NCBI GenBank assembly: GCA_024276655.1
Contig: JAJRWU010000323.1
Span: 1-35,657 of the forward strand
Length of the DNA: 35,657 nucleotides
Direction of reading: 5' to 3'
Source of the DNA: Planctomycetota bacterium
GTDB lineage: Bacteria; Planctomycetota; Planctomycetia; Pirellulales; Pirellulaceae
Below the pieces are notes generated by a model. That model was not told the origin of the DNA. It did not search any database and was given only the letters and a program-made list of their open reading frames with translations. A program made the translations under genes and the position numbers. Of the stretch, positions 4,189 to 35,485 are shown piece after piece (positions within the stretch are counted from its first letter, which is position 1; every line of letters begins with the position of its first letter).

Positions 4189-4305
4189 GCTCGATAAATA
4201 ACTGTCGCATTTGTGTAGCCATCGTCGCCAGACGGTGGGTGAGCGTTGAACCATCCCACGCTCTGGCGAGCATGGCTACGGCACTAATTTTCCGCTCGAT
4301 GCTTA
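4189..4305 (-). repeat. 117-bp inverted-repeat arm B (REP/MITE-like)
   Basis: This is the reverse complement of 2601-2717 with only a handful of differences by eye. It carries the same internal hairpin, here in a cleaner form (GTAGCCAT outer arms). Arms A and B enclose a 1.5-kb segment holding only the barrel gene. The adjacent 4306-4418 has no gene; it includes a partial ATTCCCGCCTGCGCG motif related to the repeats near 13623. Confidence 0.8.
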
Positions 4306-4418: not shown

Positions 4419-5261
4419 CTAATTTTTTTCCTTCTGTAATTCCTTCAGGATTTTTGCGACGAGTTTGTCGTTCGGTTGCGTCTTGGCGACGCGTTCGAAT
4501 TGCGCGCGAGCGGCTTTGGGTTGCCCCAACATCCAATAGTGATAGGCGACAAGAAATCGCTTTTTCGCAGTGGACTCCTGCCGGATGGAGTTTTCCAAGG
4601 TTCGCAACTGCGCGGAGTAGTCGGCGGTTTTTTGGTAATGTCCGCCGAGGGTCTTCCATTGCCAGTGCTTGCCGCGCTGTAACGCCATGCGGGCAGCTTG
4701 ACTCGCTTGGTCAAATTCCCCAGACGCGAAGAGCGCCAGCGAGCGAAACTGTTCGATTTCCGCGTCGGCCTCATTTTGTTCGGTAGTATTGCCGCGACTG
4801 CGAGCGACGAGCGCATCGGCCAATTCAAGCGACCGTTTGTAGTCTGCCTGACGAAACGCTTTTCGCGGCGTGGCTAGCAACTGCGTGATTTCCGCGATCT
4901 TCGGTTGTGGGGCGGCTCCCTTGTTATCCGATGGCGTGACGGTTCTGGTCAGCGTGAAACCGCTCCTGGCCACGGCCGTGGAAATAGCGGCTGTTGAAAT
5001 CCGGCCGCCCTTTGGCGGAGTCAGGGCAAAAAGCCCCTTTTTGAAATCCAGCACCTTCACCTGTTGGACTCCGGCCACCTGCCGAAGCTGCTTGAGCACA
5101 TTGGTCAGTCAGGTAGGTCAGGTGATGCCGCTGACATACACCAAGTAGCGGCGTTCTTGCTGCTGTTCGATCTGCGACCGTTTTTCAGGCGGCTGCTGGG
5201 CATGGCCGATGGCTGAAGGAACAGCCGCAGCCAGCAAGACCAGAATGACAATACATTTCAT
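4419..5261 (-). CDS. candidate selenoprotein: exported MerP-like HMA domain with UxxU site plus TPR-like C-terminus
   Basis: Read from ATG 5261 (or GTG 5267), the frame gives 280 residues if two TGA codons, at 5118-5120 (codon 48) and 5109-5111 (codon 51), are decoded. Residues 1-21 are a signal peptide ending AIGHA. Residues 39-105 match a heavy-metal-associated domain: YLVYVSGIT-U-PT-U-LTNVLK, then VAGVQQVKVLDFKKG. This aligns with the GMTCxxC metal loop, helix 1 and strand 2 of MerP, so both metal-binding cysteines are replaced by TGA. The reading frame is open on both sides. Residues ~115-280 are helical with TPR-like repeats. A SECIS-like hairpin follows at 5069-5087. A gene caller would stop at codon 48 or start at GTG 5099 and miss the signal peptide and metal site. 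It is last in the mer-type operon. Two stops landing exactly on both ligand positions argues against decay. Selenocysteine itself is inferred; selA, selB, selC and selD are not in the window. Confidence 0.75.
5069..5087 (-). promoter_or_regulatory. SECIS-like hairpin
   Basis: In the mRNA, CUUCGGC-AGGUG-GCCGGAG forms a 7-bp stem (one U-G pair, extendable by a G-U pair) with a 5-nt loop. The loop begins 28 nt after the second UGA and 37 nt after the first. Bacterial SECIS elements lie inside the coding region just after UGA, with a short GC-rich upper stem and a G early in the apical loop; E. coli fdhF has AGGUCU there. Function is inferred from this resemblance. Confidence 0.6.
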
Positions 5262-5309: not shown

Positions 5310-5320
5310 ATGGGCGCCTA

Positions 5321-5353: not shown

Positions 5354-5440
5354 GAACCGGGCCGTAGTTTCCCCATATTTTCATGTTGGACGAAAAAATC
5401 CGACGCGGCGGGTTCGCGCCGCGCCGGACCACGCTTCACA

Positions 5441-5653
5441 TTACTTGACGCGGCAACAATCGCGCGTTGGTTGCACCGCCGCGGTTTCGGCGACCGCCAG
5501 CGGGCATTGGTCCTTACAGACTTCCTCGCCCGTCAGCGGGCAACTGACTTTGCCGGGGCAGTCGCTTCGTTGCAACCCGGCGGCGCCGGCGGCTACCGCA
5601 ACAACCATACCGATCGCCACAACGGCCGTCAAACTTAACAGTACGCGTTTCAT
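5441..5653 (-). CDS. small exported Cys-rich protein in mer-type operon
   Basis: A 70-residue protein. The start at 5653 is chosen over an upstream frame start (5686) because AAGGAG lies 9 nt before it and the protein then begins directly with a signal peptide (MKRVLLSLTAVVAIGMVV). The mature part is about 45 residues with six cysteines at 32, 38, 46, 50, 66 and 67, arranged as DCPGKVSCPLTGEEVCKDQC and a terminal DCC. I do not recognise a named family. Its position directly downstream of a MerR-type promoter (5738-5769) suggests a periplasmic metal-binding or relay protein. The CPLTGEEV stretch recalls the CPVTGG of the His-rich lipoprotein at 18173-18733. The function is inferred. Confidence 0.75.
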   Translation of the reverse strand: MKRVLLSLTAVVAIGMVVAVAAGAAGLQRSDCPGKVSCPLTGEEVCKDQCPLAVAETAAVQPTRDCCRVK

Positions 5654-5795: not shown

Positions 5796-6245
5796 TCATT
5801 GCTCAGGGAACTCGATTTGCACTAACTTCGCCGGCGGGGCGCAGGCGGAACAGGCCGCCTTGGCAACAGGTCGGCGGGGCCAGACGTTCCAAAACGACGC
5901 CCCCAGCAACAACAAAATACCTCCATACGTGAGGCCCTCGCTGACGAAAACAAACTTCCCCATGACCACCATCACGGCCGCCGGCAGACCGACGGCGAAC
6001 GGTCCAAAGCCGCGCCGCCGTTGGGCGCGAAACGCCATCAGGCCGACCGCCACCGCCATGCCGACGATGGTCAGCGGCAAGAGCACGGCGTTGTTCATCA
6101 ACATCGGCACGCCCAACGCACTGAGCAAGCCAGCGTAGGCCGGCCAACAAGCCGGGCAGGTCAGGTTCGGCAGTAACGCCACCGCCACGGCGGGAATAGC
6201 GGCCCATGCGCCGCGCCGGCCGGAGGGTGTTTTGTCGTTGCTCAC
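5796..6245 (-). CDS. MerC/MerT-like four-helix mercury transport protein
   Basis: A 149-residue membrane protein. The start is GTG 6245, overlapping the merR stop in a GTGA junction, with GGAG 8 nt upstream; a longer frame from 6314 would run into merR. There are four hydrophobic segments, at about residues 14-50, 54-72, 80-101 and 107-122. The first carries LPNLTCPACWP (Cys 30 and 33), the paired-cysteine signature of MerT/MerC-type transporters that take Hg(II) from the periplasm inward. A second pair, CSAC (132 and 135), lies in the C-terminal tail. Four helices favour MerC or a MerC-like family over three-helix MerT. It is co-transcribed with merR. Confidence 0.7.
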   Translation of the reverse strand: MSNDKTPSGRRGAWAAIPAVAVALLPNLTCPACWPAYAGLLSALGVPMLMNNAVLLPLTIVGMAVAVGLMAFRAQRRRGFGPFAVGLPAAVMVVMGKFVFVSEGLTYGGILLLLGASFWNVWPRRPVAKAACSACAPPAKLVQIEFPEQ

Positions 6246-6655
6246 GGTTTTTGCTCCAGGGAATCGAGCGACTCCAAAATGGGGCAATCGTTGGCGGGTC
6301 CGTTGCCGCTGCACGATTTTGTCAACTGGACCAACGATTGTTTCATGCGGCGCAGCGAGCGCATTTTTTCTTCGATATCGGCGATCTTTGTTTCGGCCCG
6401 CTGTTTGACGTCGGCACAGGTTGTTTGAGGATCAAGCCGCAGCGAGAGCAGCTCCTTGATTTCGTTCAGGGTGAAGCCCAGGTCTTTGGCGCGTCGGACA
6501 AACAACAGCCTGAGCACGACCGATTCCGGGTAATGCCGGTAGCCGGAAGGCCCTCGCGGCGGTTCGTCGATCAAACCGCGACGTTCGTAAAAGCGCACGG
6601 TCTCGATGCCGACGCCCGCCCGCTGGGCGACTTTTCCGATGGTCAGGGTGGTCAT
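6242..6655 (-). CDS. merR: MerR-family mercury-responsive regulator
   Basis: A 137-residue protein; the start at 6655 is preceded by GAGGAG. The N-terminal winged-helix region TIGKVAQRAGVGIETVRFYE is typical of MerR. A long dimerisation helix follows. Cysteines lie at 80, 115 and 124. Their spacing (35 and 9) equals that of the three Hg(II) ligands Cys82/117/126 of Tn501 MerR, and the last is in the conserved DCPI context. This supports mercury rather than Zn, Cd, Pb or Cu sensing. It is transcribed first in the operon, from the MerR-type promoter at 6685-6716, and is therefore probably autoregulated. No divergent mer genes and no merA follow. Confidence 0.9.
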   Translation of the reverse strand: MTTLTIGKVAQRAGVGIETVRFYERRGLIDEPPRGPSGYRHYPESVVLRLLFVRRAKDLGFTLNEIKELLSLRLDPQTTCADVKQRAETKIADIEEKMRSLRRMKQSLVQLTKSCSGNGPANDCPILESLDSLEQKP

Positions 6656-6684: not shown

Positions 6685-6716
6685 ATTCTACCACCTGTAC
6701 CATACTACGGAGTCAA
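6685..6716 (-). promoter_or_regulatory. MerR-type promoter/operator, operon head
   Basis: TTGACT (6711-6716) and TAGAAT (6685-6690) are separated by 20 bp with the imperfect dyad CCGTAGTATGGTACAGG. The architecture matches MerR-activated mer promoters. It lies about 30 bp upstream of the merR start. Confidence 0.8.
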
Positions 6717-6767: not shown

Positions 6768-9700
6768 TTACTCTTTTTCGTGCAGCGCGAACCAAGCTTT
6801 CATTTGGTAGCTGCAACGACATTTCGAGGAGCCGTCGGGAACCAATACCAAGCCGCCCGCCGGTATGGCGTTGATCCAACAACTGGGCCGGATGCCGCCG
6901 TAATTCTCCGTGCCGGCCTGCCGCGATAAATCGCGATAGCCCAAGGCGCCGCTGCGGAACAACAGCAAATGGTCGCTGGAGGAAATCTGGCCGCAGCCGT
7001 ACGAACGCTCCCAGGAAAGCGGCAATGGTCGACCCGTGGCCAGATCCCAGACTGCGTCTTGCGCCATGACCGTACCGCCGTTGATCAGCGGCCGCGACTT
7101 ATAATTCGCGGTTTGATCCCACAACCGGCGCCCCGTCGAAGCCTCAAACCCTGCAATGCGGCCGCCAATTTCCGAAGGCAGCTTGAAGAAATTATGCCGC
7201 ACCGCCTGGTAGTTCATGATCAGCGTGTTGTGTTGCTGGCTGTAGCCCAACTGCGTGCCGAAGATGTCGTCGGGCTGCCGCCAATCGAGTTTTCCCGTGG
7301 CTGCATCGAGCGCAAGCAACGCGCCGCTGGGCTGTTCGCTCGGCTTCAACAACGGCTTGGGCCTGCCGTTGCGGCGAGGGTTCGCCACGTGGTCGGCCTT
7401 CACCAGCGGCCGATCAATCAAGAACACATGGCCGCCGCCGATCGCAATGCTGTTGTTGCGAATGGAATGTTGCGGCTGGAATTGCCAAGCCGTTTTTCCG
7501 CTGGCGAGATCGATCGCGAACAGCCATGCCGATTCCGTCGTGAGTTTGATGCGTTGATAACGGGGGCTGATTTTGTGCTTCGTGTTCGCCAAGGATCCAA
7601 ACAGCAGGCCGTCGGAAAAAGCGAGGAAACCCCACCGTGCATCGGCCGGAAGTTCGGCTTCGCCGGGCGGCGGCGGCAATTGGTATTCAGCGATTTTCCG
7701 GCCGGTTTTGAGGTCGATTCGCACACAGTGGTCGCCGCGTTTGACGAACACGCTCTGGCCGCCAATGCAAAAGTTACTGCCTGCTTCACCGACGCCCACA
7801 TCGTGATGGATGCCGTCGTAATCTTGCAGGTTGCCGGGTAGTTCATACTTCCAGAGCGCGTGGCCGTTGTAGGCGTCCAGCGCGCAGAGGCCGTTCACTC
7901 CGCCCACGACCATCACGCCATCGTGGTACAGCGGCGCGGGCGCTTGCCCATGCCGATTGGGCAATTGGAAATTGCCGTCGCGGAACCAGTGCATTTCCAG
8001 CGGCCCCTTGACGATTTTGTCTTGCGAGCAAATCGTGTTGGCGGGATCGGCGTTTTGGTGCGTCCAACTGCCGGCGCCAACCAGCGCGCCGCGCTCGCTC
8101 GTTTTCATTTCGCCGATGGGCCCCGTGCAGAGTTGCCCGCCGTAAGGACGCTGGAGCCGGAGCATTTGCGCGCGCAGGGAATCGTCAACCGGCTGCGTCA
8201 GCGATTTTGCAGAGATCACCAAATTGGCGGTGTGCTTGGCGTAACGCGATTGGGCCGGGTCGGCCAGATGCACCACCACGCGGGCGCCGTAAAGACCGGC
8301 TTCGTCGAGCCGGCGGCGGGCCAAGGCAACGTTCTCGGGATTGGCGTCGACGGCAATGATTTGCAAATTGGTTCGCCTTGCCAACGCAAGCGCCAACTCC
8401 CCGCCGCCGCAACCCAAATCAATACAGACGCCGCTCGTGACGCCGGTGCGGCGAATAATTTCTTCAACGGCTTGGGCATAGTCGATTTCAGCGGCCGTTT
8501 TTTTCGACGGTTGGTTGACGGTTTGCGACGACGTTTTTTCCGGACCGCCATCAAAACAGTACACTCGCCCTTGATCGGTGCTGACGATCAAACGTCCGCT
8601 GGCGTAAGCCAATCCGAGCGCGCGTCCGGCGACTTCATGCGACCACCAAGTGTTGCGTTGCCGGGTGTAGTCGATCGCACAGACACGGCCATTCTCGCCG
8701 CAAACGGCGTCGCCATCGGCGATGATGAAATCGAGCACCTCGCGCTCGCAGCCCACCAGACGCGTTTTTTCCAACACGCGGCGGCGAACCAGTTTCCCCT
8801 TGCGGTCGGGCCGCTCGATGGTTTTCCAGCGATAAGACGCCAACGACTTGCCTTCTCCCCGCACCACGCCCGACGGCGTCGCGACGGTGGCGCCGACGCC
8901 GAATTGGGAGGCCAATTCGCCGCTGGCGGCGTCGAACAAGCAACCGGCGGTGCAGAGCATGTTCCCGGCCAGCATCGCGCGGGAGCCGCCTCGATGTTGG
9001 TTTTTTTGCAAATGGTAGTAGGCCAACTTGCCGTCGGGGCGAAGAAACGCCGCCGGTACGGCGCGGCCGGTGGGAACGAAAATGTGTTGCTCGTCGGCCA
9101 ACAAATAGCCTTGAGACGAAACGCCGCTCTTGGAGCGAGCGCCGCCGTGGGGCTGCGCCATTTCGAGAGGACCGGTGCGGTCGTTGGTCCAGATCAGGTG
9201 GCCGGTTTTCGCGTTGTGCGCGTGCAAATAGACGCCATCGCTGGGCCAAATTCCGGCCGCGAAATAGACGGTGTCGTCGAGCACGACCGGTCCGCCGCGG
9301 GCCGGCCAACGTGAAATCATGCGGCCGTTGCCAAACACCTGCCGGTTGTTGGGCCCGCCGCGATGTTTCCACAACAGCTTGCCGTTTTCCAACGAAAGTG
9401 CGTACAGCCAACCATCGTCGCTGGCCACGAACACCCGATCTTGCCAGCCGACGGGCGCGAATCGGATCGGCCCTTCGGTAAAGAACGACCATTTTTCGAC
9501 GCCGGTTTGGGCGTCGAGCGCGTAGAGTTTATCGTCGGCCGAACTGCCGAAGAGCACGACGTCGCCCATGATGATCGGCTGGAAGGCGTTGTCGAATTGC
9601 ATTCTCTCCGACGAAGGCCACGCCGGGTTCGGCGCCTGCCGGCTGGAAAACTCCCAACGCAATTTCAGTTGGTTGGGCAGCGGCTCCGACGTGAAACCGC

Positions 9701-9809
9701 TGCGGGCCGCGTCGGCTCTCGCCGCCGGCCAGTTCTCGGCGCTGGCGCGCGCCACAACCATGAGCAGCAGCACGCAGGCCGCGAGAAGGGGACGAATCTG
9801 ATTGGCCAT
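6768..9809 (-). CDS. exported PQQ-like beta-propeller protein with embedded SAM-methyltransferase domain
   Basis: A 1013-residue protein from ATG 9809 (9836 is an alternative in-frame start that would bury the signal peptide). Residues 1-26 are a signal peptide ending in ASA. Residues ~28-425 and ~580-1000 are two blocks of PQQ/quinoprotein-type propeller repeats, with LYALDAQTGVEKW, LYALSLENGKLLW and LCALDAYNGHALWKYE motifs. Between them, about residues 435-560, is a class I methyltransferase Rossmann segment: motif I VCIDLGCGGGELALALA, then the acidic IIAVDANPENVALARRRL. Exported propellers usually bind ligands or work with dehydrogenases. A SAM-dependent domain in an exported protein is odd, because SAM is cytoplasmic. 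It is transcribed toward the mer operon, ending about 50 bp before its first promoter. Confidence 0.85.
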   Translation of the reverse strand: MANQIRPLLAACVLLLMVVARASAENWPAARADAARSGFTSEPLPNQLKLRWEFSSRQAPNPAWPSSERMQFDNAFQPIIMGDVVLFGSSADDKLYALDAQTGVEKWSFFTEGPIRFAPVGWQDRVFVASDDGWLYALSLENGKLLWKHRGGPNNRQVFGNGRMISRWPARGGPVVLDDTVYFAAGIWPSDGVYLHAHNAKTGHLIWTNDRTGPLEMAQPHGGARSKSGVSSQGYLLADEQHIFVPTGRAVPAAFLRPDGKLAYYHLQKNQHRGGSRAMLAGNMLCTAGCLFDAASGELASQFGVGATVATPSGVVRGEGKSLASYRWKTIERPDRKGKLVRRRVLEKTRLVGCEREVLDFIIADGDAVCGENGRVCAIDYTRQRNTWWSHEVAGRALGLAYASGRLIVSTDQGRVYCFDGGPEKTSSQTVNQPSKKTAAEIDYAQAVEEIIRRTGVTSGVCIDLGCGGGELALALARRTNLQIIAVDANPENVALARRRLDEAGLYGARVVVHLADPAQSRYAKHTANLVISAKSLTQPVDDSLRAQMLRLQRPYGGQLCTGPIGEMKTSERGALVGAGSWTHQNADPANTICSQDKIVKGPLEMHWFRDGNFQLPNRHGQAPAPLYHDGVMVVGGVNGLCALDAYNGHALWKYELPGNLQDYDGIHHDVGVGEAGSNFCIGGQSVFVKRGDHCVRIDLKTGRKIAEYQLPPPPGEAELPADARWGFLAFSDGLLFGSLANTKHKISPRYQRIKLTTESAWLFAIDLASGKTAWQFQPQHSIRNNSIAIGGGHVFLIDRPLVKADHVANPRRNGRPKPLLKPSEQPSGALLALDAATGKLDWRQPDDIFGTQLGYSQQHNTLIMNYQAVRHNFFKLPSEIGGRIAGFEASTGRRLWDQTANYKSRPLINGGTVMAQDAVWDLATGRPLPLSWERSYGCGQISSSDHLLLFRSGALGYRDLSRQAGTENYGGIRPSCWINAIPAGGLVLVPDGSSKCRCSYQMKAWFALHEKE

Positions 9810-9952
9810 TTTTTTCCGCCGTCGTGATGGTGACAAGTTTGGAGCCAGTGAGTGTATGATATATAAAGTTCGCCGCTTAAACCACGTCGAAGGTAGTCAC
9901 TCGGAAGACCGGCGAATATACCACATAACGGATAGTTTGTATTGGGGAAAGC

Positions 9953-11637: not shown

Positions 11638-11761
11638 AGAAGCCCGGCTTTTTTCGTTTAACGGCAAGCCGAAGGCGACTGCGTTTCTGTCTTGCCCGTA
11701 CTCGCTGGCGCAAAACGCAGTCGCCTTCGGCTTGCCGTTAAACGAGCCATTGGTAACCGTG
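11638..11761. repeat. palindromic element, copy P1, joined to half a terminator repeat
   Basis: Arms at 11655-11686 and 11713-11744 (32 bp, CGTTTAACGGCAAGCCGAAGG and on) are perfect inverted repeats around a 26-bp loop. The right flank ends AACCGTG at 11761, as in P2. The expected left flank (CACGGTT...) is missing. In its place is the left half only of the terminator palindrome (AGAAGCCCGGCTTTTTT, 11638-11654). Confidence 0.8.
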
Positions 11762-11792
11762 TGAAGTCTTTACAGGACGTTTGATTTCCACG

Positions 11793-13100
11793 CTATGTAT
11801 ACGACCACGGCGCCCGCGGCGTGCGGGAGCGCAGGGCGTTGGCTTGGTCGTCGTTTTTGAACTGCTCGGTTTGAGGATCCCAATGGAGCGTGCGGCGCAG
11901 CCGGTAGCCCAGGTTCGCCAAGTGGCAAACCGTCGCCGAACGGTGGCCGACTTCCGCCGGGCAGACCGTCGCCTTGCGGCTCTTGATGCAGTCGAGCCAG
12001 TTGCGATGATGGTTTTCCGAAAGGTACACGCGGCGGTCGTTCTCGCCCAACGGCTGCTTGGCAAGTTCGGGCGGATCGCTTTCGATGATCGGCCGGTTCA
12101 CATACAGCTTGCCGGCGGTTCCCTCGAACGTGCAGCCGGGAGGGCCGCCATGATACATTTCCACGCCGTTGGCGTACGTGAATTTGAGGCCGGTGTCGGC
12201 ATCGCCGGCGGGCGGCTCTATTTTGACGGGGCCGGAGGCGTCCATTTCCAAGGCCCACTGCGCGATATCAAAATGATGGGCGCCCATGTCGGCCAAACTG
12301 CCGCCGGCAAATTCCTGGTACTGGCGAAAGGCCGGGAAATGACGATGGATTCCCTTCGGGCAGAGAATTTCGTTGTAGCCGCGCCACGGCGCGGGTCCGA
12401 CCCACATCTCCCAGTCGAGATCTTGCGGCGCTTTTTTCTCCGGCAAGTCGCAAGGACGAGGCGGCGGGCCGACGCCAATACGAACTGTTTTGATGGTTCC
12501 CAAACGGCCGTTGCGAATCAGGTTGGCGGCCAAGCGAAAACGTCCGGCGAATTCGCTGCGTTGCTGGCTGCCGGTTTGAAACACGACTTTGTTCTCACGC
12601 ACCGCGTCGGCGATCAAGCGGCCTTCGTGGATGTTGTGGGTCAGTGGTTTTTCGCAGTAAATGTCTTTCTTGGCCCGCGCAGCCTGCAAACAGGGGATGG
12701 CGTGTCCGTGATCGGGCGTGGCGATGAGAACGGCGTCGATATCGTCGCGGGCGAGCAGTTCGCGGAAGTCGGTGTGGGTGTCGCAACCATGGTAGACGCC
12801 GCTTTTGGTTCGCTCGGCGTACTGTTTTTCGACATCGTGTTGGGCGGTTTCACGGCGCGTCTTTTCCACTTCGCAAATCGCCATGACTTGCACGTCGTCA
12901 TAACCCAGCATCCGACGCAAGTGGCCGCGGCCCATCATGCCCACGCCGATAAAGCCAATTTGAAGCCGATCGTTGGCGGCGGGCTTTTCGGCGCCCAACG
13001 TCGCCCGAGAAAGTATCGTGGGAGCGACCACGCTGGCCATGGCGGCGGCTTGCACGAACCGGCGCCGAGAAAGAGAAGTTTCACGCGGGGATCGGGCCAT
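11793..13100 (-). CDS. Tat-exported Gfo/Idh/MocA family oxidoreductase
   Basis: A 435-residue protein. The N-terminus has a twin-arginine signal (SLSRRRFVQAAAMASVV). The Rossmann motif QIGFIGVGMMGRGHL and the EKP motif (YCEKPLTHNIHEG) establish the family. C-terminal blocks include GSLADMGAHHFDIAQWAL and NHHRNWLDCIKSRK. It shares only family-level similarity with its neighbour at 10256, so this is not a recent duplication. Such proteins are strongly expanded in planctomycetes and are thought to act on sugars or sugar acids. The substrate cannot be read from the sequence. It may be part of a polyol or sugar catabolic set with the symporter upstream. Confidence 0.9.
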   Translation of the reverse strand: MARSPRETSLSRRRFVQAAAMASVVAPTILSRATLGAEKPAANDRLQIGFIGVGMMGRGHLRRMLGYDDVQVMAICEVEKTRRETAQHDVEKQYAERTKSGVYHGCDTHTDFRELLARDDIDAVLIATPDHGHAIPCLQAARAKKDIYCEKPLTHNIHEGRLIADAVRENKVVFQTGSQQRSEFAGRFRLAANLIRNGRLGTIKTVRIGVGPPPRPCDLPEKKAPQDLDWEMWVGPAPWRGYNEILCPKGIHRHFPAFRQYQEFAGGSLADMGAHHFDIAQWALEMDASGPVKIEPPAGDADTGLKFTYANGVEMYHGGPPGCTFEGTAGKLYVNRPIIESDPPELAKQPLGENDRRVYLSENHHRNWLDCIKSRKATVCPAEVGHRSATVCHLANLGYRLRRTLHWDPQTEQFKNDDQANALRSRTPRAPWSYT

Positions 13101-13240
13101 GAGCGAGCATCTCCGGAAGGTCAGTCAGTGATGGATAAAAACCAAGCCTACCCGCCGCCGCCGACAACCGCAACTTTTTGCCGGGCAACCAGTCACGGAC
13201 AAAACATTTTAACCACGGAGCGCGGCCGTTGGCTGTAACC

Positions 13241-13432
13241 AAAAAAATTTGACCACGGATAACACAGATGCCACGGATGAAAAAGAATAAGTAATTGGGA
13301 AGTGAGAAGAAAATGCGTTGTGAACGGGCCGGCGCGCGGAGAGAAAGTGAGCCAGAACTTCATGAATGGAAGGCAACGCTCGACGATCAAAATCCGTGGA
13401 ATCGGTGCTATCCGTGGTTGAAATATTTTTTT
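13241..13432. repeat. CCACGGAT-type inverted-repeat element
   Basis: Imperfect 45-bp arms at 13241-13285 (CCACGGATAACACAGATGCC within) and 13388-13432 (its reverse complement with changes) flank about 100 bp. Each arm carries two CCACGGAT blocks. I recall similar CCACGGAT repeats being widespread in environmental planctomycete and verrucomicrobial genomes. It resembles a MITE. Confidence 0.65.
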
Positions 13433-13622
13433 GCCGCCCGTTCGCGTTTCGTGAACAACTCCGCCTATCGCTGATCGCGAGTTTGGTTGCGGCCATCGGC
13501 CGCGCTATGTTTCCCTCCGTCGCAACTGGTAGTGGGTTATTTGCCGGCGGATAGATTGTCGTTGCAATTTCTCGCGATGAAGACCTGTGGGAGTGATCTG
13601 CCGCGCGGAACGGGCGTGGACT

Positions 13623-13693
13623 GTCATTCCCGCGCAGGCGGGAACCTAGTGCAATACGCAAACCATCTGGATTCCCGTCTGCGCGGGAATGAC
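13623..13693. repeat. inverted pair of ATTCCCGC REP-like units
   Basis: GTCATTCCCGCGCAGGCGGG (from 13623) and CCCGTCTGCGCGGGAATGAC (to 13693) face each other across 27 bp, each unit also being weakly palindromic. A third unit of this family lies at 30067-30088. This is typical of paired REP sequences. Confidence 0.7.
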
Positions 13694-13732
13694 GGAAGAA
13701 CCTTTTAGGGGCCCGGCGAATGTTCCGTGGTT

Positions 13733-15397
13733 TCAATCGTCCGAAGCCTGTTCGATGGGGCGCGCTTCGCCAGCGGGAGCGACAGGGCGGCGTAAAATGC
13801 TCCAGTAGGTAAGCACTGCGTGGCGGACATTCGTCGGGACGGGAAAGAAAACACTCAGCCCGAGCGATAAAAGCACCGTGATGCCGAAGCCGATCGGCCA
13901 AAACCAAAGCGAAAACCAATCGGGTTGGAAGACGATCACGCATAGCGTGCCGATGGCGCCGGCAAAGGTTCCAGCGAACACGGCGGTCGCCGAAACGCGG
14001 CGAAAAAAGAAACCTAAAATAAACACCGCCAGCAGCGGGCCGCCAAAGCCCGCCGTGACGGTTTTGCTGATCGAAAACACCTCGCCCAGCGAGCCCACAA
14101 AGTTCGCCAAGACCACCGAAATGATTCCCACCACCACCACCACGCCACGCGTCAGCCAAAGTTCGCCGGCCGCGGTTTTCGGTTTCCAGTGCGGCGCGAA
14201 GCGGTCGCGGAAATCGACCATCAGCGCCGTCGTGACCGAATGGATGCCGGAATCGATGCTTGACATAATCGCCGCCATCAGCGCCACCACCATCAGTCCC
14301 GCCACGCCAATCGGAAAGTGCATTTTCACGAATCGGGGAAAGGCTTGATCGCTCAGGTTCAGCTTCACGACGTCTTCCTGAATTTGCCCGTCGTGCGCCA
14401 GATAGTAGGTTTGCACGTCGTCTGGCGAGACAAGTTGCAAGTTGGGGTGCAAGGCCTGCACCTCTGCTGCTTTCCCGGCCAGCACCGGCGCCAATTCGGC
14501 AGGATGGTCGAGGTAATATCCGTAGAGTCCGACGCCGATCAAGAGCAACCCGGGCGTGACGATCAAATTGCCCAACACCGTGACGACAAACCCGATTTGC
14601 GAGGTGCGTTCATCGCGCGCCGCGATATACCGCTGCACCGCGACCTGATCGGCGCCGAAAGCCGAGAGCCCTTCCAGAAAGGTGCCGATGAGCAGCGCCG
14701 AACTGCCGAATTTGAGCGTCATGGAGAGCGAGAAGTCGACGACCAAATCTTCACGGCCGGCGAAGTAGTGCTGCATCATGCCGGACACGCCGCCATCGGT
14801 GTGCATGATCAGGAGGCCCATTGCGAGCAGGATCGTGACCACGAACACGAAGAATTGCAAGACGTCGGTCCACATTACAGCGCGCAGACCGCCGAGAATC
14901 GTATAGCCGATCGCGACCACGCCCAACGAATAAATAATGACATGCAAATTGCCGCCGGAAATAGCGGCGAGCGCCAGGGCGGCGGCGTACGTGGCGGCGG
15001 CCATCCAGGCGATGCGGAGCAGAATAAAGAGCCCGCTGGCCAGACAGCGCACGGAAACATGAAACCGCATTTCCAGGTATTCGTAAGCGGTGCGGCAACC
15101 CAAACGCGCGTAAATCGGGATAAACACGCCGATAATGACCGGCGCGAACAGCAGGAAGGCGATCAACACCATGCCGACTCTGAGGCTGTTGCCAAAGGCC
15201 GCCGAAGGGTACATGACAAAACTGTTGGTGGAGAACAGCGTGGCCATCACGCTGAGTCCCACCGGCAGCCAACCCATCGACTTTCCGGCGTTGAAAAACT
15301 CTTCCGACGATTTCTGTTTGCGAAAGAACAGGCCCAAGCCAATGGCGAAAGCCATGTAGGCCAGCACAACCGCGTGATCGAGCCAATGGAGTGTCAT
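13733..15397 (-). CDS. sodium:solute symporter (SSS family)
   Basis: A 554-residue protein, start taken at ATG 15397 (MTLHWLDHAVVLAY); an extension to 15424 lacks support. It has about 13 hydrophobic helices. Family features include the N-terminal FFNAGKSMGWLPVGLSVMAT segment, where SSS/SLC5 transporters carry their first unwound helix, and IGYTILGGLRAVMWTDVLQF, a hallmark of helix 5 in this family. The long hydrophilic region around residues 310-350 is a periplasmic loop. It imports an organic solute with Na+. Neighbouring oxidoreductases and a nitrilase-family enzyme hint at a sugar, polyol or amide substrate, but the sequence gives no specificity. Confidence 0.9.
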   Translation of the reverse strand: MTLHWLDHAVVLAYMAFAIGLGLFFRKQKSSEEFFNAGKSMGWLPVGLSVMATLFSTNSFVMYPSAAFGNSLRVGMVLIAFLLFAPVIIGVFIPIYARLGCRTAYEYLEMRFHVSVRCLASGLFILLRIAWMAAATYAAALALAAISGGNLHVIIYSLGVVAIGYTILGGLRAVMWTDVLQFFVFVVTILLAMGLLIMHTDGGVSGMMQHYFAGREDLVVDFSLSMTLKFGSSALLIGTFLEGLSAFGADQVAVQRYIAARDERTSQIGFVVTVLGNLIVTPGLLLIGVGLYGYYLDHPAELAPVLAGKAAEVQALHPNLQLVSPDDVQTYYLAHDGQIQEDVVKLNLSDQAFPRFVKMHFPIGVAGLMVVALMAAIMSSIDSGIHSVTTALMVDFRDRFAPHWKPKTAAGELWLTRGVVVVVGIISVVLANFVGSLGEVFSISKTVTAGFGGPLLAVFILGFFFRRVSATAVFAGTFAGAIGTLCVIVFQPDWFSLWFWPIGFGITVLLSLGLSVFFPVPTNVRHAVLTYWSILRRPVAPAGEARPIEQASDD

Positions 15398-15451
15398 GAT
15401 GAAGCCGCCTGTGTCGCCAAGCAAGGTGTGAATTCAGGGTTTTGTACCGCT

Positions 15452-15585
15452 CACGGTTGAAAATGGTACATTTTTTCGTTTAACGGCAAGCCGAAGGCGA
15501 CTGTGTTTGGCGCCAGCGCGTACTGGCAAGACAGAAAAACGCAGTCGCCTTCGGCTTGCCGTTAAACGAACCATTGGTAACCGTG
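15452..15585. repeat. palindromic element, copy P2
   Basis: The full-length copy. Outer inverted ends CACGGTT (15452-15458) and AACCGTG (15579-15585) enclose 32-bp arms 15477-15508 and 15537-15568 with a 28-bp loop. The loop is in the opposite orientation to the loop of P1. It lies between the nitrilase-family gene and the symporter gene. Confidence 0.85.
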
Positions 15586-15614
15586 CGAAATATGATAATG
15601 GTTGGCGGCCGATC

Positions 15615-16511
15615 TCAACAATCGACTTGCTCGCGCGTCAATTCGCCGAACAGTTCCGGACGCCGCGTTTTCAAGGTGTAGTTCGCCAACGAACGTTCGG
15701 CCGCCAACAACTCAGCGGGGAGATCATGAACGATCATTTCATCTTGGATTTCCTCCCGCGACGTGGACGCCAATACATCGCCGTTGGGGGCGAACACCAG
15801 CGCGGCGCCGGCGTGGTGCGGTTGGTTGGGAGAATCGCGAGGATACATATCGACGTAGCCGGCTCTTCCCGCCTGATTGGTCAGCACGGCGAAGCAGGCG
15901 TTTTCCCGAGCGCGCATGCCGTACGACGAAATGAAAAAATCGTGGGCGTACTCACGCGCCGCTTGCGCCGCTCCGGGGGAATCGTCCCACATTTTCATGC
16001 GGGCGGCGTGCGGCATGAGCAGCACATCGGCCCCGCGCAGCGCCAGAATTCTGGCGATTTCCGGAAATTGGTTGTCGTAGCAAATAATCATGCCGACTTT
16101 GCATTTGCCGATGTCGAACACCGGCATTTCGCGGCCGCCCTTATAGTACAAGACTTCGTCTCGCGAGCAGTGCAGTTTCCGCTGCTTGCCGAGGTAGCCG
16201 TCAGGACCGAACAGCACTTGCGTGTTGAAGACAACGCTTCGTTCTTTTTCGCTGATCCCCACGGAGAGAAACAGCTTGCACGATTGAGCGATTTCGGCCA
16301 GTCGCCGGCAAATGGGGCCGGTGGGAACTTCTTCCGCTAGTTCCCAGGTGTTGGGCGTGCAATGCCCTTGCATTTGCAGTTCGGGAAACAGCACCAGTTC
16401 GGCGCCTTTTTCGGCCGCTCGCTTACTCCAATGCGCGATCTGCTCGATATTCCGGTCGACTTGGCCCAGCAAGCTATTGATGCTGACGGCCGCCACGCGA
16501 ATGGTTTGCAA
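15615..16511 (-). CDS. carbon-nitrogen hydrolase (nitrilase superfamily)
   Basis: A 298-residue protein from TTG 16511, supported by AAGGA 8 nt upstream. The catalytic triad is recognisable: Glu44 in LVLFPELQMQG, Lys112 in GKQRKLHCS, and Cys144 in VGMIICYDNQFPE. This is the fold of amidases, N-carbamoyl hydrolases and nitrilases, which cleave non-peptide C-N bonds in the cytoplasm; no signal peptide is present. The conserved surroundings fit the amidase/N-carbamoylputrescine-amidase-like branches better than true nitrilases, but the substrate is not determinable. It is same-strand with the symporter, separated by element P2. Confidence 0.85.
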   Translation of the reverse strand: MQTIRVAAVSINSLLGQVDRNIEQIAHWSKRAAEKGAELVLFPELQMQGHCTPNTWELAEEVPTGPICRRLAEIAQSCKLFLSVGISEKERSVVFNTQVLFGPDGYLGKQRKLHCSRDEVLYYKGGREMPVFDIGKCKVGMIICYDNQFPEIARILALRGADVLLMPHAARMKMWDDSPGAAQAAREYAHDFFISSYGMRARENACFAVLTNQAGRAGYVDMYPRDSPNQPHHAGAALVFAPNGDVLASTSREEIQDEMIVHDLPAELLAAERSLANYTLKTRRPELFGELTREQVDC

Positions 16512-16889
16512 TGTTCTTTTCCTTGAAGGGCTCTCGCGATTTCGTCATCGAACAGGGGCCGAACTTTGTCAGCCGTTACAAATTTTTTCGACGGGGCGGT
16601 TTCAATTGTATCGACCGACATCGAGATATACTTCACACGGCTGACGATGGCTCGTTTAACGGCAAGCCGAAGGCGACTGCGTTTTGGCGCCAACACGTTC
16701 GGGCAAGACGGAAAAACGCAGTCGCCTTCGGCTTGCCGTTAAACGAAAAAGGCGACATTTTCAACCGTGAGCAGTATAGCAACGAACGCTGCAAGCTGCT
16801 CGAAAATAGCGGAGGGAATTTGCCAGCGGGCTTGCCTCATGGGAGAATAACAGCCCAAGGTCCGCTTCACTCAAACAAGGAAAAACGCA
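16512..16889. other. divergent intergenic region with palindromic element
   Basis: This lies between the divergent nitrilase-family gene and the oxidoreductase at 16890. It holds palindromic copy P3 and presumably both promoters. No gene is supported. Confidence 0.5.
16636..16769. repeat. palindromic element, copy P3
   Basis: Arms 16653-16684 and 16714-16745 match P1 and P2. The ends are CACGGCT (16636) and AACCGTG (to 16769). Relative to P2 the outer flanks are inverted: the ATTTTCAACCGTGAGC flank lies on the right here. Confidence 0.85.
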
Positions 16890-29443: not shown

Positions 29444-29547
29444 AATGAGGCGGTTGGCCGAGAAAAACAACGGCTTGAGATAGGCAACGTATTATTTCCC
29501 CGGCGGGCCGCGATCATCGTCTACCATGGCGATCTTGGCAAGTGTAA

Positions 29548-29625
29548 GCAGCGGGCCCAAAAATGCAGCGGGCCCAAAAATGCAGCGGGCCCAAAAATGC
29601 AGCGGGCCCAAAAATGCAGCGGGCG
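29548..29625 (+). repeat. 17-bp tandem repeat running into tRNA-Gly
   Basis: Four exact copies of GCAGCGGGCCCAAAAAT (29548-29615) and a partial fifth (GCAGCGGGC) whose last bases are the first bases of the tRNA. Confidence 0.95.
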
Positions 29626-29689
29626 TAGCTCAATGGTAGAGCATCGGCTTCCCAAGCCGACTACGAGGGTTCGATTCCCTTCGCCCGCT
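29619..29689 (+). tRNA. tRNA-Gly (CCC)
   Basis: A complete cloverleaf: acceptor GCGGGCG/CGCCCGC, D-arm GCTCAATGGTAGAGC, anticodon stem TCGGC/GCCGA with loop TTCCCAA (anticodon CCC), and T-loop TTCGATT. CCA is not encoded; the discriminator is T. Confidence 0.95.
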
Positions 29690-35376: not shown

Positions 35377-35447
35377 AATTTGGCCTGTAAATTCAGCAAC
35401 GATAGGGGTAGGGAGAACCGGTTGAATTTCCGGTTCCCCCTCCCTCC

Positions 35448-35480
35448 GAACCGTACGTGCGGTTCTCCCGCATACGGCTC
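35448..35480 (-). ncRNA. group II intron domain V
   Basis: GAGCCGTATGCGG...CCGCACGTACGGTTC on the minus strand is the conserved catalytic domain V hairpin, with the AGC-type triad region at the base. Confidence 0.88.
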
Positions 35481-35485
35481 TCCAG

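Follow-up and report, generated by a model that had tools for sequence, protein, structure and literature searches.

One gene in the window (the whole 35,657-nt stretch of DNA analysed, from a bacterium of the Planctomycetota) very likely encodes a selenoprotein with two selenocysteine (Sec, U) residues at its metal site. The gene, at 4419..5261 (-), specifies 280 residues: a signal-peptide-like N-terminus, an HMA-like domain with the motif UPTU (codons 48-51), and a TPR-like helical C-terminus. It is highly probable, taking the explanation as a whole, that the product is a real selenoprotein and an exported soft-metal trap or chaperone, in which a UxxU HMA-like domain is carried on a TPR scaffold. 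The gene, the positions of its TGA codons, the selection acting on it, the Sec machinery of its genome, the Cys/Sec exchange among homologues, a SECIS-like hairpin, and the predicted HMA fold were all computed.

Reading frame, orthologue and predicted domains

The frame begins at ATG 5261(-) and ends at TAG 4421-4419, and its 280 codons contain only two internal stops, both TGA. The first proposed Sec, TGA codon 48 (5118..5120, minus strand), lies at the first HMA ligand position and the second, TGA codon 51 (5109..5111, minus strand), at the second; each aligns with Cys or Sec in homologues, and the residues around the pair read ...YVSGIT-U-PT-U-LTNVLKQLRQVAGVQQVKV.... The first ~22 residues resemble a signal peptide, by reading the sequence alone. 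An earlier note on this DNA had proposed a candidate UxxU selenoprotein at 5097-5261, with a frame open on both sides of the TGAs. The two-TGA frame at 5261-4419(-) is confirmed as a real observation, as are its start at ATG 5261 and its openness; the end was placed too early, since the gene runs well beyond it, to 4419. The note had also argued that random decay is unlikely. Indeed, two random nonsense changes in 280 codons would strike exactly codons 48 and 51 with a probability of 2.6e-5, and both TGAs are kept in a same-genus orthologue.

This orthologue (locus L014; QIKY01000204.1, Planctomycetaceae bacterium SZUA-33) shares the start and the two TGAs with the gene, at 83% identity. Random stops elsewhere in the gene, which the earlier note had named as a sign of decay in close relatives, are absent from this single close orthologue across the 261 codons available. 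(L014 and the match G001:C64 are taken as a single record, giving one independent orthologue.) Between the two genes dN/dS is 0.234 overall (253 aligned codons); beyond the TGAs, codons 52-105 give 0.169 and the 148 aligned codons past 105 give 0.238. The gene is under purifying selection past the TGAs. Codons 41-60, which span both TGAs, differ at 0 of 60 nt, versus 117 of 759 nt across the whole alignment. The HMA-TPR architecture has one independent orthologue among 196 related genomes and none further in 392 genomes of the phylum, and tblastn of the HMA-TPR protein against plasmids returned zero matches.

The HMA-like domain (4938..5147, minus strand; ~ residues 39-108) is predicted to have the order β-α-β-β-α-β, with UPTU at the β1-α1 turn, which is the HMA fold in the model. 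The AlphaFold model, made from a two-row alignment, has a mean pLDDT of 68.7, with blocks of 72-84 over residues 41-110. In Foldseek, Ccc2a (1fvq) matches with TM 0.81 by target, rmsd 2.4 and E 4.7e-3; Ccc2a and CopZ together give TM ~0.8 by target length with E of 5e-3 to 2e-2, and no match in the whole list has E ≤0.001. By sequence profile, PF00403 (HMA) scores 16.1 bits when Sec is read as Cys, under its gathering score of 24.8. PDB sequence matches to the HMA part are ATP7B, B. subtilis-type CopA, ZntA and mercuric reductase, and the Cys pair is in register in the two ATP7-type PDB alignments inspected; the structure-derived PDB match list consists of TPR matches and is uninformative on the HMA part. 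The claim that the HMA domain is joined to helical repeats is upheld: residues 123-280 (4422..4895, minus strand) are TPR-like both in the model and by PF13428 (27.9 bits vs a cut-off of 23.5), with the remaining TPR models under theirs.

Cysteine/selenocysteine exchange, Sec machinery and the SECIS-like hairpin

Residues 1-121 were searched against 392 genomes of the phylum. There were 63 matches, own gene included, spread over 52 genomes, and every match was read. Without the own gene there are 62 HMA matches in 51 genomes: CC in 57, UU in 3 (G437, G511, G247), CU in 1 (G213) and CE in 1 (G208). Both columns are thus C or U in 61/62 matches, a count with some bias towards Cys and Sec because the queries had Cys at both columns. 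Some of the matches are adjacent domains of one protein (G430, G449), and the CC read in G468 has stops around the match and is probably noise. With the whole protein as query against the 196 nearer genomes, the majority of matches fall on the TPR part; those on the HMA part, besides the own genome (G000) and G001, are CC in 15/15, and any stops in them fall past the domain. Nearer-genome rows with apparent stops inside the HMA part (G015, G002, G027, G166) have the motif CC and the stops lie past the domain. An in-frame TGA aligned with the Cys of homologues, as looked for in a bacterial selenoprotein, is therefore present at both columns. Codons 48 and 51 are the columns that hold the ligand Cys in HMA proteins, as the earlier note had claimed.

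Further Sec-HMA genes were seen beside some of the matched loci (G345, G418, G263) and through a search with NF041115 (G155, G166). The former (L097, L102, L107) are paired small HMA-like proteins of distant Planctomycetota, close to CxxC HMA genes, and have the motifs GATUATU, GIDUGGU, GMSUGMU and GMDUGGU. The latter (L087 and L089) are HMA proteins with GMTUPVGC and GMSUPVGC, respectively, i.e. with U-x3-C spacing. In the G166 copy a TAG interrupts the frame within the domain, and the gene may therefore be decayed; this copy was retained in the hairpin and selA counts below. A single-TGA match in G108 was rejected, being a CEGC protein with the TGA located elsewhere, as were PF00403 matches on contigs C33 and C116, which on reading are not HMA proteins of this kind.

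Decoding of UGA as Sec needs machinery that the note had proposed to look for in the same genome, and tRNA-Sec, selA, selB and selD are all present. The assembly (5.96 Mb, 328 contigs, 96% complete) contains a tRNA-Sec of 66.4 bits (gathering 47), to which ARAGORN assigns the anticodon TCA. Genes for selB (339.9 bits) and selA (552.1 bits), both above cut-off, are near each other on contig C296, and a selD domain (271.4 bits, above cut-off) lies inside a larger frame. The core claim of a UxxU selenoprotein is thus supported by the Sec machinery, by the C/U columns, and by the clean close orthologue. The distribution of selA was compared across 61 genomes, of which 16 were classed as Sec-HMA carriers and 43 as without the Sec form in the stretches read; G139 and G457, whose Sec status is unsettled and in both of which selA exceeds the cut-off, were set aside. 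A selA match covering ≥380 of 455 positions is found in 16/16 carriers, and 14/16 pass the cut-off, the shortfall being narrow in G020 (266.4 vs 267.9) and wide in G595 (148.5). Of the 43 classed as without the Sec form, 17 pass. A Fisher test on the cut-off counts gives p 0.001, which is indicative only, since the genomes are related.

The own genome has two further Sec-HMA genes, adjacent to each other on contig C68 (L085:7028-7444 and 7464-8255): a UxxC lipoprotein-like gene and a UxxU HMA-thioredoxin lipoprotein-like gene. The UxxC gene has GMTUAAC in an HMA domain that exceeds the Pfam cut-off (65.7 bits); it is also kept in G001, where it is cut by a contig end. In the UxxU gene, the HMA domain (35.0 bits) has the motif GATUMGU and precedes a thioredoxin domain with WCAPC (51.0 bits). 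Among 296 related genomes, two-TGA orthologues of this HMA-thioredoxin gene are present in G001, G100, G049, G595 and G020 (32% identity), and in G824 as a split match. The copy in G001 begins at a contig end, and the TAA flagged in it is the C-terminal stop; matches in G139 lack the HMA motif region.

A SECIS-like hairpin, GCUUCGGC-AGGUG-GCCGGAGU (5068..5088, minus strand), has its apical loop 28 nt past TGA 51 and 37 nt past TGA 48. There is a G in the apical loop, and the orthologue has one loop base different; thus, at the level of sequence, the gene has what is sought in a bacterial selenoprotein, a hairpin just 3' of the TGA with a loop G. The scan, which used the layout rules of bacterial SECIS elements, was confined to that layout, with bulges disallowed and synonymous recoding as the control. 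Recodings that fold equally well in the same layout amount to 1.1% (1000 synonymous), 1.0% (500), and 2.0% (400, local codon usage). The positive control, the E. coli fdhF hairpin, was poorly recovered because the scan admits no bulge. Plain folding compared with shuffles gives no signal (z -0.59, +0.40, -0.07 and -1.13 for 57, 58, 72 and 91 nt from the TGAs).

The same recoding measure was applied to 18 of the 23 Sec-HMA genes, leaving out near copies (L014, two G001 genes, and two G418 genes). The fraction of equally good recodings is below 0.1 in 13/18 Sec-HMA genes vs 5/57 Cys homologues at the same place (Mann-Whitney p 4e-7, a value that overstates independence because 6 of the 18 genes are mutually orthologous). 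In 5/18 Sec-HMA genes the hairpin is indistinct from the gene's own recodings; four of the five near copies left out (all but the second G418 gene) were scored, at 0.012, 0.074, 0.275 and 0.60. For the HMA-thioredoxin hairpin (7 sequences, 6 distinct), 90.5% of cells are paired and 3/7 pairs are changed on both sides. Among shuffles, 43/500 match the 3/7 pairs and 8/500 match the covariation score, and pairing drops when the partner is slid.

The mer-type neighbourhood, proposed function and alternatives

The neighbouring genes are of mer type. A merR (6242..6655, minus strand) has TIGR02051, the Hg type, as its best match; its score of 140.3 bits is just short of the cut-off of 150.85, and this is the top MerR-type model among the matches listed. 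It has Cys at the TTC and C-x8-C places, three residues that we take to be at the expected metal-ligand positions. Preceding merR is a mer-type operator, TTGACTCCGTAGTATGGTACAGG, with the promoter TTGACT-CCGTAGTATGGTACAGGTGG-TAGAAT (6685..6716, minus strand), which is kept in L014 and which, we assume, resembles known mer promoters; a σ70 scan with a spacer limit of 16-18 made no call there. The GTG start of a gene for a MerC-like membrane protein (5796..6245, minus strand) overlaps the merR stop. For this protein PF03203 scores 23.5 bits vs a cut-off of 27.6, and the NCBIfam MerC models are also under cut-off. The upstream neighbour of the selenoprotein gene (5441..5653, minus strand) encodes a small Cys-rich protein of 70 aa, exported by its look, that has no NCBIfam match to E 10 and no Pfam match to E 0.1. 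Its unit CPGKxxCPLTGEEVCxDxCPLA is single at 5441-5653 and doubled in L014:5576-5875. Gene order at the locus is identical in L014.

Between the Cys-rich and selenoprotein genes lies a strong intrinsic-terminator-like hairpin (5397..5430, minus strand), kept in the orthologous locus, and the selenoprotein gene may therefore be a separate transcription unit; directly upstream of it, no mer-type operator was seen by eye. No MerA match in the own genome exceeds the cut-off. The best, on contig C279, has 393 bits vs 454.45, and it was rejected as a mercuric reductase since it is under the cut-off and its C-terminus is without a vicinal Cys pair, presumably a feature of MerA. A separate locus encodes a MerTP-like fusion (81.7 bits vs a cut-off of 180) with an ordinary CxxC. 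The mer context claimed in the earlier note is consequently borne out on one side of the gene, by merR, the mer-type operator and the merC-like gene, and is weakened by the intervening terminator and by the lack of a MerA above cut-off.

Several other features of the window were noted. REP-like palindromes, AAGCCCGGC(A/T)TTTTGAAAA(A/T)GCCGGGCTT, occur at 5318, 10202, 18768, 24532, 26945, 31609, 32938 and 35341, and the orthologous locus lacks the one that lies upstream of the selenoprotein gene. A second repeat family (11647-16753), with arms GTTTAACGGCAAGCCGAAGGCGACTGCGTTT, has several direct and inverted copies. Inverted repeats of 117 nt, 96% complementary (2601-2717 / 4189-4305), flank a 373-aa gene that has no Pfam match to E 0.1. 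A 1022-aa PQQ-type β-propeller protein with a methyltransferase domain mid-protein is encoded at 6768-9836, a 17-nt unit is repeated ~5 times at 29531-29632, immediately 5' of tRNA-Gly, and an Rfam group II intron match (58 bits, gathering 40) lies at 35402-35482 (-), near the contig end.

From these features we infer Sec insertion, export, metal binding, the choice of metal, and the role of the TPR-like part. Both UGAs would be read as Sec by SelB, with Sec supplied through the cell's own tRNA-Sec/SelA/SelD route, and the SECIS hairpin right after the second UGA would aid decoding, probably as one hairpin for both codons. In the exported product, a Sec-x-x-Sec metal site would replace Cys-x-x-Cys in the HMA-like domain, on a TPR-like helical scaffold. 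The protein is likely an exported bis-selenolate binder of soft metals, and its role would most likely be that of a periplasmic trap or chaperone of very high affinity. Hg(II) appears the likeliest metal because an Hg-type merR, a mer operator and a merC-like gene adjoin; for Hg(II) specifically, a choice suggested by the merR and merC-like genes nearby, the chances are about even.

Other readings of the frame have been weighed. The fragmentation of the assembly into 328 contigs makes it conceivable that two TGC or TGT codons were mutated in a pseudogene, or miscalled to TGA in sequencing or assembly, but both TGAs are found again in a separate same-genus assembly, which largely refutes this. 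Since dN/dS is also <0.25 past the TGAs, and four further genomes from the phylum have UU or CU at these columns, decay or error is very improbable. Hardly more credence is due to termination at codon 48 followed by restart at GTG 5099; the products would then be a peptide of 47 residues and a TPR protein of 226 residues that lacks a signal peptide. An ORF does run from GTG 5099 to 4419, and its start also occurs in L014 (6163); however, such a restart would divide the HMA domain between two products and deprive the TPR part of its signal peptide. Codons 41-60 are identical in both genomes, and in the HMA part the alignment to HMA homologues continues past the TGAs. A reassignment of TGA throughout the genome, e.g. 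to Trp or Cys, without any selenium, would be in keeping with a TGA read in frame in the HMA-TPR gene. Given that the Sec machinery is complete and includes a UCA tRNA-Sec, and that the neighbouring merR terminates at TGA 6244-6242, such a reassignment is exceedingly improbable.

The remaining alternative accepts the selenoprotein and concerns its chemistry: UxxU might be a redox couple, forming a diselenide, rather than a pair of ligands, and the HMA-thioredoxin sister might then serve to reduce it, or as an oxidoreductase acting in parallel. The sister gene does join a UxxU-HMA domain to a WCAPC thioredoxin domain. Furthermore, pairs of the UxxC type are redox motifs, and UxxU is found in a peroxiredoxin-like family, according to the available parts of two publications (PMC2398784, PMC9312934). 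Nevertheless, the fold that holds the motif here is HMA-like rather than that of a thioredoxin, with the motif at its metal loop, and the neighbours at the locus are of metal type; we regard a redox couple as unlikely, if by no means negligible. The ligand-pair reading, a bis-selenolate metal site, is the one preferred here.

If the metal site is as proposed, its interest extends beyond this gene. Redox chemistry is the main setting in which Sec is known. In this gene, both HMA-like ligand positions are Sec codons, and Cys and Sec are swapped at the same two columns across the phylum; thus, the question of Sec as a natural heavy-metal ligand becomes directly testable on small domains. Judging from sister genes in related bacteria, a two-Sec metal site may be a recurring strategy. 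Tentatively, and with less confidence than in Hg(II) as the metal, Planctomycetota may possess a selenium-based system of exported metal handling, in which bis-selenolate HMA domains joined to different partners (a TPR scaffold, a thioredoxin, a lipoprotein anchor) would trap Hg(II) or another soft metal like it and the thioredoxin fusion would recycle oxidised or metal-loaded selenolates. The frames also suggest that annotation blind to Sec truncates or splits such Planctomycetota genes.

Relation to known metal-binding proteins

The earlier note suspected prior art, and rightly so. In the available parts of two reviews, of 2022 and 2026 (PMC9312934, PMC13188914), a UxxU family of "putative mercuric reductase / metal-binding protein" type is described, which is now NCBIfam NF041115 (UxxU_metal_bind) and which PMC13188914 credits to Zhang and Gladyshev 2007. 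A MerT-type selenoprotein is also listed in what is available of these reviews (PMC9312934, PMC13188914), and a table in the accessible part of a 2008 GOS survey includes a Sec-containing MerP (PMC2398784). For MbdU (NF045648, metal-binding double selenoprotein) and the Sao selenoproteins, Sec has been proposed as a heavy-metal ligand, as stated in PMC13188914. Consequently, metal-binding proteins with UxxU have been proposed before, the NF041115 family and Sec-MerP being already listed in the parts of these sources available.

The protein described here nonetheless differs from each of these relatives. Like NF041115, it has UxxU at an HMA metal site, and its HMA part aligns to profile positions 5-68 of 74; the profile, however, is a 74-position domain, to which this protein adds a signal-peptide-like start and TPR-like repeats. 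Because the protein scores 24.6 bits vs a cut-off of 95, and NF041115 exceeds its cut-off in 0/196 related genomes, it is not filed under that family. With MerP (TIGR02052) it shares an exported-looking HMA-like domain, a motif at the β1-α1 loop, and mer-type neighbours, and the earlier description of it as MerP-like holds for the HMA-like fold. It does not hold for the family score (15.6 vs 92.55 bits), and two Sec in place of Cys and the TPR extension set the protein further apart, as does a system in which the membrane neighbour is MerC-like and no MerA in the genome is above cut-off. NF045683 (MerT/CopZ fusion-like heavy metal transport selenoprotein) resembles it by name, with Sec in a heavy-metal HMA setting, but the score is 16.8 bits vs 375 and the match is limited to the HMA part.

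In predicted fold the protein resembles copper-carrier HMA domains (Ccc2a 1fvq, CopZ 2qif, ATP7B 6a71; Foldseek TM 0.75-0.81 by target length), from which it differs in that both ligand Cys are Sec codons. MbdU and Sao share Sec as the proposed heavy-metal ligand, and MbdU has two Sec; their motifs are others (CU and others), as far as the available descriptions go, and NF045648 is not among the matches listed. No report of HMA-TPR or HMA-thioredoxin selenoproteins, or of such selenoproteins in Planctomycetota, was found among the matches listed in the literature searched, which included few subscription papers. Thus, while the UxxU site places this protein beside selenoproteins for which metal binding has already been proposed, the HMA-TPR architecture in which the site is set looks new.
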